From the NCBI GenBank assembly GCA_017451025.1, contig JAFSSM010000015.1:1-64000 (forward strand): a stretch of DNA of 64,000 bases, written 5' to 3'. The stretch's first letter is position 1. Each line of letters starts with the position of its first letter. Made by a program: the position numbers and the translations under genes. A model generated the notes under the pieces. That model had not been told where the DNA came from. It saw only the letters and a list, made by a program, of their open reading frames with translations, and searched no databases. Shown here piece after piece: positions 60,238 through 63,002 of this stretch. This DNA comes from Synergistaceae bacterium. GTDB lineage: Bacteria; Synergistota; Synergistia; Synergistales; Aminobacteriaceae.

Positions 60238-61677
60238 TTATCGCGCTATTGCACCAAGCCCATAACTTATTCTGCGTTCATACCCGTCTGACGGAATATT
60301 GTAGATTCTCCCGTCAACTATCAGCTCCGTTGAGCCGCCTCCGTCGAGATTCAGTGCATGTGTTACACGCTGAGAACGCATAATCTCCGTCAATTCGTTT
60401 ATCGTCGCTCCGGATGAATGCATCCCGTTACGTCCGTCCACTATCATGAACACCCATTGCCCCGAGTCATTCACACCTACAGCAGATCTAGGATGACGTG
60501 CCGCCGTGAACGCGCTCTTGAAGTCCTCCTCAGATTGTGCGGGTATACCGTTCTCAAGGAGCATGGGCCCGGCCTGAATCACGTTGCTCATCTCGTACAC
60601 CGAATAATCATCGTCAGTGATTAACCCGAACGCTGCCTCGTCGTTGTCGTCCCAGCCCAAAGCACCGCGTCCCTCGTAGACTTCACCGAAATCACGTCCT
60701 CCGACCTTCAGCGCACCAATCGGGTAACCTCCGCTTTTAGTTACGGCGAAGAAGCCCGCGTTAATCGCTACGCCGGTGTTATTTTGCGAGACTATGCGCG
60801 ACAGTGTGGAGAGGTCTTGAGGGCCGTTGCGCGAAGCCACAGGAAGAATTTTCCAGTATGACGGGTCAATCGTAACCATCACCCAGAAACGCGGGACTAT
60901 TCTCGTTTTGGGGTTAGTTACTGCGGGAATGAGCTTATACTTGATTTTGCGGAAGTTCAGGAACGCGATAAACCTTCTGGCCTGGTTAAAATCTTCCAGC
61001 TTGCCGGTTCTGACACCTGAACTATTGCCTGAACCTGTGATGCCTGCCTCGATGTTCTGGGACTTCAGGAGATTCTTGATGTTATTGGCCATTTCGCGGT
61101 TAATTCCGTAGGCGTGAACCCGCCACGAAGGAATCCCGCTCGGCACTCCTTCACGGTGAATGTACACTCTGACCCCGTCAAGAGGATTGCGTATCATGTT
61201 TAGGGTGAGGCTTTTGCTGGCCTGTACCATTTTTGACATGAGGGCGTTGTAGTCTTGTGCGGACAGATTAGCGGATGGGTTGAATGTGCCAGTTTTGGCG
61301 AACAACTGGGGATTCATGTTCGAGGCCACAACTAGACAGCCTTTCTCGAAACTGGCGAGTTTGCCGTCGTCGCTAAAACCTGTAGGGTAATCGCTGAGCA
61401 GTTCTGCCTCAAAAGTCAGGCCAAGACTCTGAATGCACCACCTGAGAGCTTCGAGCCTGGTAACCGGAGCGTCGAGTTTGTCCACGTCATCAGTAACGTA
61501 ACCTGTCCTGAGGACGAAACCGCCGGGATCATCGTACTCTGCTTCCGGTGAACTGCTCCAGTCGATTCCGCGAGCATCAAGCAGTCCTGACAGGAAGGCA
61601 TATTTTGTTACGGCCTCTGATGCTGAGACAGGCAGAAGCAGAAGCAGAAGCAAGCATATACGTCTGAAATTTCTCAT
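60238..61677 (-). CDS. Exported phosphodiester glycosidase (NAGPA/DUF2233) family protein
   Basis: A 479-residue protein with a signal peptide (MRNFRRICLLLLLLLPVSAS, Leu codons forming a short repeat at 61625-61650). The region at about 195-255 (YGINREMANNIKNLLKSQNI and NQARRFIAFLNFRKIKY) resembles a SPOR-like domain. The C-terminal catalytic domain has GVAINAGFFAVTKSGGYPIG, HPRSAVGVNDSGQWVFMIVD and THALNLDGGGSTELIVDG, the NAGPA blocks. Family members remove N-acetylglucosamine-1-phosphate-type caps from glycopolymers. It likely acts on cell-envelope polymers in the periplasm. Confidence 0.85.
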   Translation of the reverse strand: MRNFRRICLLLLLLLPVSASEAVTKYAFLSGLLDARGIDWSSSPEAEYDDPGGFVLRTGYVTDDVDKLDAPVTRLEALRWCIQSLGLTFEAELLSDYPTGFSDDGKLASFEKGCLVVASNMNPQLFAKTGTFNPSANLSAQDYNALMSKMVQASKSLTLNMIRNPLDGVRVYIHREGVPSGIPSWRVHAYGINREMANNIKNLLKSQNIEAGITGSGNSSGVRTGKLEDFNQARRFIAFLNFRKIKYKLIPAVTNPKTRIVPRFWVMVTIDPSYWKILPVASRNGPQDLSTLSRIVSQNNTGVAINAGFFAVTKSGGYPIGALKVGGRDFGEVYEGRGALGWDDNDEAAFGLITDDDYSVYEMSNVIQAGPMLLENGIPAQSEEDFKSAFTAARHPRSAVGVNDSGQWVFMIVDGRNGMHSSGATINELTEIMRSQRVTHALNLDGGGSTELIVDGRIYNIPSDGYERRISYGLGAIAR

Positions 61678-61713
61678 AATGATAAAAACCTCGCAATCAA
61701 TTTTTATGAAACC

Positions 61714-61722
61714 TGCTATAAT
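61714..61722 (+). promoter_or_regulatory. Extended -10 promoter of the structured RNA
   Basis: TGCTATAAT, with the predicted start point 7-8 bases downstream (61729-61731), exactly where the RNA rod begins. The -35 region (around 61692-61697) is poor. Confidence 0.7.
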
Positions 61723-61729
61723 TTACCAC

Positions 61730-61865
61730 ATGCCCCTGCGGTATTCGTGATAATGATTAAGTTCTGAGCCAACACTCGTTTACGCTAGGCTAATGCCACA
61801 GACTTCATGTCTTATTAGGGACGGGTCAGAACACTCATTACACGGTACTCGCGGAGGCATTTTTT
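61730..61865 (+). ncRNA. Structured small RNA, candidate 6S RNA
   Basis: A 136-base non-coding segment that folds almost end to end. Pairings are ATGCC 61730-61734 with GGCAT 61856-61860, CGTG 61746-61749 with CACG 61841-61844, TAATGA 61751-61756 with TCATTA 61835-61840, GTTCTGA 61761-61767 with TCAGAAC 61826-61832, then an open asymmetric bubble. A terminal hairpin follows, with CTAAT 61790-61794 pairing ATTAG 61814-61818 and AGAC/GTCT around TTCAT. Six T follow (61860-61865). A promoter with an extended -10 ends just before it. A long rod with a bubble and the CCCTGCGGTATTCG start resemble 6S RNA, which binds RNA polymerase. The 6S assignment is tentative: the RNA is short for the family. 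SRP RNA is excluded by the lack of its GGAA loop. Confidence 0.7.
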
Positions 61866-61868
61866 GTG

Positions 61869-62639
61869 TTATATCAATCCTAAATGTCTGCAGGCTTCCA
61901 GTATTCCGCCGTCGTCAATATCTCCGCAAACATAATCCGCAGCATTTTTCGCACACTCTGATGCATTCCCGACAGCAACACCAATCTTTGCCCGCGCAAT
62001 CATCTCAACATCATTAGGCCCGTCCCCGAACACAATCACTTCATCAAGACTTGCCTTCTCGTGAGCAATCAGTCTCTCTATGCCGTTCCATTTTGAGGAA
62101 CCTGCACATCTTGCTTCGGTGAAGGCGTGCATAAGTTCGAGGGTAATGTTTCCCGGAGGCGAGAAGAATATTCCGTGCATGGGGGTTAGAGTTTCGGGAG
62201 GAAGCATTATGTAGCAGATTATTGCAGACTTGAGGGAACTTAGGGGACGAATGCAGTCGTAACCTGCCTGAGCGTTGAAGTAATTGAAGAACGGGCTGAA
62301 GGCATCAGTTGCGTAAAGGTATTTATCGTCAATTGCGGCAGTGAGTGAGGGAAATTTTGCGGCCACTTCGCGGAAAGCGTCGAGGTGTTCAGGCGGAAAC
62401 ATTGCGCGGTGAATTTCCTGGCCGTCCGCAAAAATCTGTGCACCTCCTGAGCACACAATATGAGTTATCCCGAAATCCCGTGCGGTAGTGAACGTCAGAA
62501 AACCTCCCCGTCCCGTAGCAATTGCCGGGATGTGTCCTGCCTGACGGAGAAGCTCGATTGCTGTGCGGGTCTGAGGCGGAACGTGGGATATTCCCTTGTG
62601 GCTGATTAGTGTGTTGTCTATGTCGAAGAATACGTACAT
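61869..62639 (-). CDS. HAD-superfamily phosphatase (Cof type)
   Basis: A 256-residue HAD hydrolase: FFDIDNTLISHKG (motif I, catalytic Asp), AIATGRGGFLT (motif II), a Cof-type cap, then GSSKWNGIERLI (Lys, motif III) and VFGDGPNDVEMI (motif IV). It dephosphorylates sugar phosphates or related metabolites. ATG 62639 follows GGGAG and is four bases behind the CobU-like stop, so the two are cotranscribed. Confidence 0.92.
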   Translation of the reverse strand: MYVFFDIDNTLISHKGISHVPPQTRTAIELLRQAGHIPAIATGRGGFLTFTTARDFGITHIVCSGGAQIFADGQEIHRAMFPPEHLDAFREVAAKFPSLTAAIDDKYLYATDAFSPFFNYFNAQAGYDCIRPLSSLKSAIICYIMLPPETLTPMHGIFFSPPGNITLELMHAFTEARCAGSSKWNGIERLIAHEKASLDEVIVFGDGPNDVEMIARAKIGVAVGNASECAKNAADYVCGDIDDGGILEACRHLGLI

Positions 62640-62642
62640 CAA

Positions 62643-63002
62643 TCATTCTCCCTTCAGCCTGAGAGCGAGTCCCGCAAAGACTCTATCAACTATCTCCGCC
62701 TCACGAGCTAATGTTTGATAGAGTCTTCCGGTCTCATCCCGCCACCTGCGCGATGCTTCGTCGATAGGCACTATTCCTCCGCAAATTTCCGTGCAGATAA
62801 TCACACATTTCCTCAGCACAGAAATCCTCTCCGCAAAATAATCACAGCCCAGCCCGCGCTTAACTCCCATATGCACATTCACGACTAAGCCAGGAATTAT
62901 TGTGTCGCTAAGTTCCAAATCCGAGACATGCCGGAATTTCCCGTAAAGCCTCTCTGCATAAGCGCGTTTGCCCTGAAATTTTCCTCCGATAATCACGTGC
63001 AC
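62643..63002 (-). CDS. Shortened CobU-like nucleotide-binding protein
   Basis: A 119-residue protein. The start HVIIGGKFQGKRAYAERLYG resembles the CobU P-loop GGARSGKS but has Gln and Arg in place of the two serines. The end, GGIVPIDEASRRWRDETGRL and AGLALRLKGE, matches the C-terminal part of CobU closely. CobU is a kinase and guanylyltransferase in cobalamin assembly, about 180 residues. This form has lost about 60 residues from the middle and altered the Walker A residues, so activity is doubtful. No other cobalamin gene is in the window. GTG start. Confidence 0.72.
   Translation of the reverse strand: MHVIIGGKFQGKRAYAERLYGKFRHVSDLELSDTIIPGLVVNVHMGVKRGLGCDYFAERISVLRKCVIICTEICGGIVPIDEASRRWRDETGRLYQTLAREAEIVDRVFAGLALRLKGE

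Follow-up and report, generated by a model that had tools for sequence, protein, structure and literature searches.

The window, that is the whole stretch of 64,000 nucleotides analysed here, harbours a gap of 191 bases (61678-61868) between two protein genes, and this gap contains a small RNA gene (Table 1). The divergent neighbour encodes a phosphodiester glycosidase (NAGPA), the convergent one a HAD hydrolase (Hydrolase_3). As described in the first-pass annotation, the RNA is intergenic. No coding frame spans the whole RNA (61730-61865), and a short chance ORF (61793-62017) overlaps its 3′ half and, in antisense, the HAD gene. In the whole 64-kb window, no tRNA was found and no Rfam family scored above its own cut-off.

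Table 1. Features of the RNA gene and its surroundings (positions of the window)
Feature	Position	Strand	Evidence
6S RNA gene, short form, about 132-136 nt	61730-61865	+	Rfam RF00013 match 61730-61861
Extended −10 promoter element TGCTATAAT of the 6S gene	61714-61722	+	sequence
T6 run after the closing stem, possible terminator	61860-61865	+	sequence; weak conservation
Phosphodiester glycosidase (NAGPA) gene, divergent neighbour	60238-61677	−	Pfam PF09992, E 3.1e-31
HAD (Hydrolase_3) gene, convergent neighbour	61869-62642	−	Pfam PF08282, E 9.9e-37
Closing stem (P1), 5′ strand, with internal loops	61730-61756	+	fold; covariation
Closing stem (P1), 3′ strand	61835-61860	+	fold; covariation
Helix P2, 5′ strand GUUCUGAGCC, expected pRNA template strand	61761-61770	+	genus-invariant; cross-family double changes
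Helix P2, 3′ strand GGGUCAGAAC	61823-61832	+	genus-invariant; cross-family double changes
5′ central bubble, AACACUCG genus-invariant; predicted pRNA template start C61773	61771-61787	+	invariant columns; start by analogy
Small hairpin GGC-UAAU-GCC, replaces the lost apical arm	61788-61797	+	folds; double changes in 3 sequences
Second small hairpin AGAC-...-GUCU	61800-61812	+	folds; double changes
3′ central bubble UAUUAGGGAC, expected −10-like contact	61813-61822	+	conservation; role inferred

The extended −10 element that had been noticed just upstream of the RNA start is present at a spacing of 7 bases, and among the 61 relatives examined, nearly all short copies of the gene and a majority of the long ones have TGNTATAAT at the corresponding position. 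No −35 hexamer is recognisable upstream of this element, which stands without a TTGACA partner. At the 3′ end, the six T of the proposed U tract are indeed there, but their reading as a terminator is weakened by a T run that is variable and poorly conserved among the 6S copies of relatives, and a simple scan for terminators gave no call there. Most genomes of the genus have a conserved AACCTCGC-like box about 35-45 bases ahead of the 6S start; it lies at 61680-61713 in the window and at the same place in the loci L032-L068, in the gap common with the divergent NAGPA gene, and is possibly a regulatory site. According to tblastn synteny, the NAGPA gene adjoins all 39 short copies, and the HAD gene is found near 30 of them. 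The 39 include the two shortest copies, those of genomes G025 and G036, which are thus orthologous by position, too. On the far side of the HAD gene (62643-63002), a CobU-like product of only 119 aa is encoded; its Pfam match is confined to the C-terminal part, even though the protein has a P-loop-like start.

A search with the Rfam 6S covariance model, as suggested at first pass, gave a match to the whole model. With permissive cmscan settings, RF00013 aligned to 61730-61861 over model positions 1-187 of 187 with 40.0 bits (E 1.4e-6). Rfam places its cut-off, which reflects curation and not a biological trait, at 46.4 bits, and the shortfall is probably due to the missing apical arm. Genome-wide, the locus was the sole RF00013 match (E 1.1e-6), and the 6S-Flavo model (RF01685) had no match in the same genome at E<=10. 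In other families of the order, RF00013 found loci of about 150-183 nt with 34-55 bits, and the cut-off was exceeded in 9 of 61 genomes. No scored 6S copy of the genus reached it, and faster search settings lost most of these copies, which is a practical reason for 6S RNA being overlooked in the genus. When the window RNA was used as a blastn query, 42 of the 43 genomes of the genus gave a match at 75-92% identity; the one exception has a completeness of 74%. From the 39 short copies we built a covariance model (R1), which scored 147.9 bits on the window RNA and matched 136 of 183 genomes of the order, with a single locus in each except for two in G019. Named records comprise Synergistaceae or Synergistales and ‘uncultured Fretibacterium’, mostly with goat, sheep, deer or reindeer gut as their source. 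In the literature searched, whose scope did not extend to the survey of Wehner et al., we found no specific description of a 6S RNA in Fretibacterium or Synergistetes. We are highly confident that the window gene is the 6S RNA (ssrS) gene of a Synergistales bacterium of the rumen type and that its product is shortened; this RNA would have a 6S-type action.

Folding bears out the 136-base rod that had been proposed for this place. Its minimum free energy is −49.6 kcal/mol versus −30.7 ± 3.4 kcal/mol for 200 shuffles (z −5.5), none of which was as stable. The main helices also covary. Among 39 distinct short copies, 98.7% of the cells of the consensus structure are standard pairs, and double changes occur at 8 pairs (29 cells). 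None of 500 shuffles equalled the observed pairing and double changes, and pairing falls to 36-49% when the partner strand is slid by 1-3 columns. Covarying homologues were thus found in related genomes, with compensatory changes in the closing stem (GC, AU and UA at columns 3-138 and 13-128, for example), P2 and the hairpins. Helix P2 does not vary among the short forms of the genus. In the comparison across families, UA and CG replace each other at three of its pairs through double changes (9, 19 and 21 cells), and the helix is paired in all 61 sequences save for one unpaired cell. Together with the AACACUCG bubble, it is the most conserved part of the short 6S RNA. As both are fixed in the genus, evidence for their covariation comes only from other families. 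The motif AGG(G)AC or AGGATC ahead of GGGUC is conserved in short and long forms alike. The hairpin at 61800-61812 is possibly the counterpart of the 3′-bubble hairpin of B. subtilis 6S-1. Furthermore, ACUCG of the 5′ bubble could pair with CGGGU at the 3′ edge of P2 in almost all copies, resembling the helix that forms upon central bubble collapse in B. subtilis. In single sequences this pairing mostly does not go beyond that of shuffles, and a bubble-collapse helix in Synergistales 6S RNA is a suggestion only.

What is new is the size of the 6S RNA in this genus. Forty genomes of the genus give matches to the R1 model that are 111-140 nt long. In G019 and G064, which are also members, the match spans 173-178 nt, and in all other genera of the order with a match it spans 150-191 nt. 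The segment from the bubble start to the 3′ GGGUC has a median length of 50 nt (24-53 nt) in the 39 short copies; in 24 long copies, the median is 93 nt (89-101 nt), so the ranges are disjoint. In the long copies, a substantial apical arm is predicted to fold from this segment. Most short copies form two apical hairpins of about 3-5 bp there, that of G025 has little apical structure, and that of G036 folds without an apical hairpin of its own. The unusual shortness remarked on at first pass can hence be traced to a lineage-specific loss of the apical arm. In the RpoD tree, all 13 sampled short-form genomes fall into one clade (support 96/95), with G019, G064 and the sister genera outside. Since the short-form genomes form a single clade, the simplest reading is that the arm was lost once in this lineage. 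To judge from E. coli and B. subtilis, the lost segment may have carried the ‘−35-like’ element in the long relatives.

We considered whether the arm loss followed a loss of sigma region 4, and rejected this, as sigma-A has an intact region 4 that hardly differs between short- and long-form genomes. The NAGPA gene adjoins 39 of 39 short copies versus 0 of 22 long copies, which would fit a relocation of the gene at arm loss. In the sister genome G088, however, the long 6S gene is preceded, at a distance of about 1.6 kb, by what the N-terminal sequence suggests to be the same NAGPA gene, and no such move is needed. In one family member, G107, two adjacent rpoD-like genes (G107:C30:53689-55954; L165/L168) are 66-70% identical to the query, and the branch of one of them in the RpoD tree is unusually long.

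6S RNA mimics an open promoter; it touches the polymerase through the bubble and P2, and its apical arm carries the ‘−35-like’ region. The polymerase copies a pRNA from the 5′ bubble of 6S RNA, P2 is unwound and the enzyme is freed (PMC8876501). Following this established scheme, the short 6S RNA would fold into the closing stem, P2 and an open bubble, occupy the active site of the sigma-A RNA polymerase holoenzyme as a mimic of the open promoter, and thereby block promoters when growth slows. Upon return of nutrients, the polymerase would, as in known 6S RNAs, start copying from about C61773 and produce a short pRNA, 5′-GUUGGCUCAGAAC..., that opens P2 so that the 6S RNA is released. With the ‘−35-like’ arm absent, the P2/bubble region would have to account for binding, which is also the case for the artificial 6S78 of B. 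subtilis. This engineered RNA without the arm binds the polymerase at about 1 μM instead of about 100 nM, i.e., roughly 10-fold more weakly, but in vitro it still binds, makes pRNA and is released (PMC8876501). Judging from 6S78, the short form is thus most likely a working 6S RNA that is weaker or differently tuned.

With the 6S/SsrS family (RF00013), including the 150-191 nt 6S RNAs of other Synergistales, the window RNA shares the 5′ start CCUGCGGU.UUCGUGA, the closing stem, P2 beside the bubble, the GAGCCAAC 5′ bubble, the extended −10 promoter and a stand-alone intergenic gene. It differs in the apical segment, which in its genus has shrunk from about 90 nt to 24-53 nt and forms either two small hairpins or no hairpin. 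Of the features that define a 6S RNA, we found the full-length model match, a compensated closing stem and a central bubble beside P2 with conserved sequence, but not a second apical helical arm with the ‘−35-like’ region. For this reason we file the RNA as a 6S variant by descent and not as a canonical 6S RNA. It resembles 6S78 (PMC8876501) in that short helices flank a central bubble and the ‘−35-like’ arm is lacking, although 6S78 is engineered and its closing stem is shortened as well, whereas the window form is natural and inherited and keeps the full closing stem. The short Synergistales 6S RNAs hence look like natural counterparts of the arm-less B. subtilis 6S RNAs. The 6S-Flavo RNA (RF01685; Weinberg 2010, PMC2864571) is likewise a short 6S-type RNA that ordinary 6S searches can miss; unlike the window RNA, it belongs to Bacteroidetes, and its model finds nothing here. 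Ms1 of actinobacteria has a 6S-related structure, too, but it binds core RNA polymerase (PMC9130861) and occurs in another phylum.

The first-pass annotation had left open whether the locus holds a divergent 6S RNA or a new class. A new small RNA class that is 6S-like at its ends only and does another job, such as base-pairing regulation, could account for the score under the Rfam cut-off and for a length much below that usual for 6S RNA. However, the conserved 6S elements are continuous with undisputed 6S RNAs of the same order, each genome has a single locus, and the window genome has no further 6S RNA. As the RNA matches RF00013 over its full length, has order-wide orthologues that grade continuously into above-cut-off 6S RNAs, and shows compensatory changes, only the first option stands; we dropped the new class, which appears very improbable. 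Even less credible, to the point of being negligible, is a cis element, i.e., a 5′ leader, attenuator or terminator of an adjoining gene. It would be in keeping with a distance of only 3 bases to the end of the HAD gene and with the divergent gap shared with the NAGPA gene, yet both neighbours are on the opposite strand, the downstream neighbour changes while the RNA stays, and the RNA's own promoter is conserved.

More deserving of thought, though still unlikely, is a 6S descendant whose job changed after arm loss, so that it would no longer inhibit the housekeeping holoenzyme, or would bind the core enzyme or another sigma factor. The arm that normally contacts RNA polymerase is gone (PMC8876501), and Ms1 of actinobacteria illustrates that 6S-like RNAs can switch their partner (PMC9130861). 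Against such a switch, P2 and the 5′ bubble with the predicted pRNA site are invariant in the 39 short copies, arm-less artificial RNAs still complete the 6S cycle in vitro (PMC8876501), and sigma-A region 4 is unchanged. A shortened RNA with a 6S-type action is the reading we prefer.

The short 6S RNA represents a natural repeat of a trimming that earlier was done only in the test tube, and the purpose of the apical ‘−35-like’ arm has so far been studied with engineered RNAs. Here, a natural series runs from long forms in sister genera to about 135 nt in most of the genus and then to 125 and 111 nt, which allows a comparative study of the arm with real pairs of 6S RNA and RNA polymerase. We may tentatively speculate, at somewhat less than even chances, that a naturally minimal 6S RNA lacking the ‘−35-like’ arm serves the whole genus, with 111 nt and a bare apical loop of 24 nt at its smallest. 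If so, the ‘−35-like’ contact would be dispensable in vivo, and weaker polymerase binding or an altered promoter selectivity would be expected. The novelty is tempered by 6S-Flavo, with a model length of 108 positions, as a short 6S-type RNA already known (PMC2864571); the arm-loss variant is of moderate interest for 6S and transcription specialists.

Some further 6S loci show peculiarities of their own. Genome G019 contains two slightly differing long 6S copies on separate contigs, L026 (G019:C15) and L029 (G019:C93). Both adjoin apparently the same radical-SAM-type gene, and the pair stems either from a duplication or from mixed strains in the assembly. Locus L086 (JAIENF010000647.1, 5021-5084) is filed under a Burkholderiales genome and has the genus-specific 6S pattern; it probably belongs to a contaminating Synergistales contig. 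Directly 3′ of the 6S gene at L059:1657-1750 (G020; similarly in G007), a long imperfect inverted repeat of AGGAAGTAGGAAT-like units is found, and we regard the Rfam micro-RNA matches near this locus as chance hits due to the local inverted repeat.
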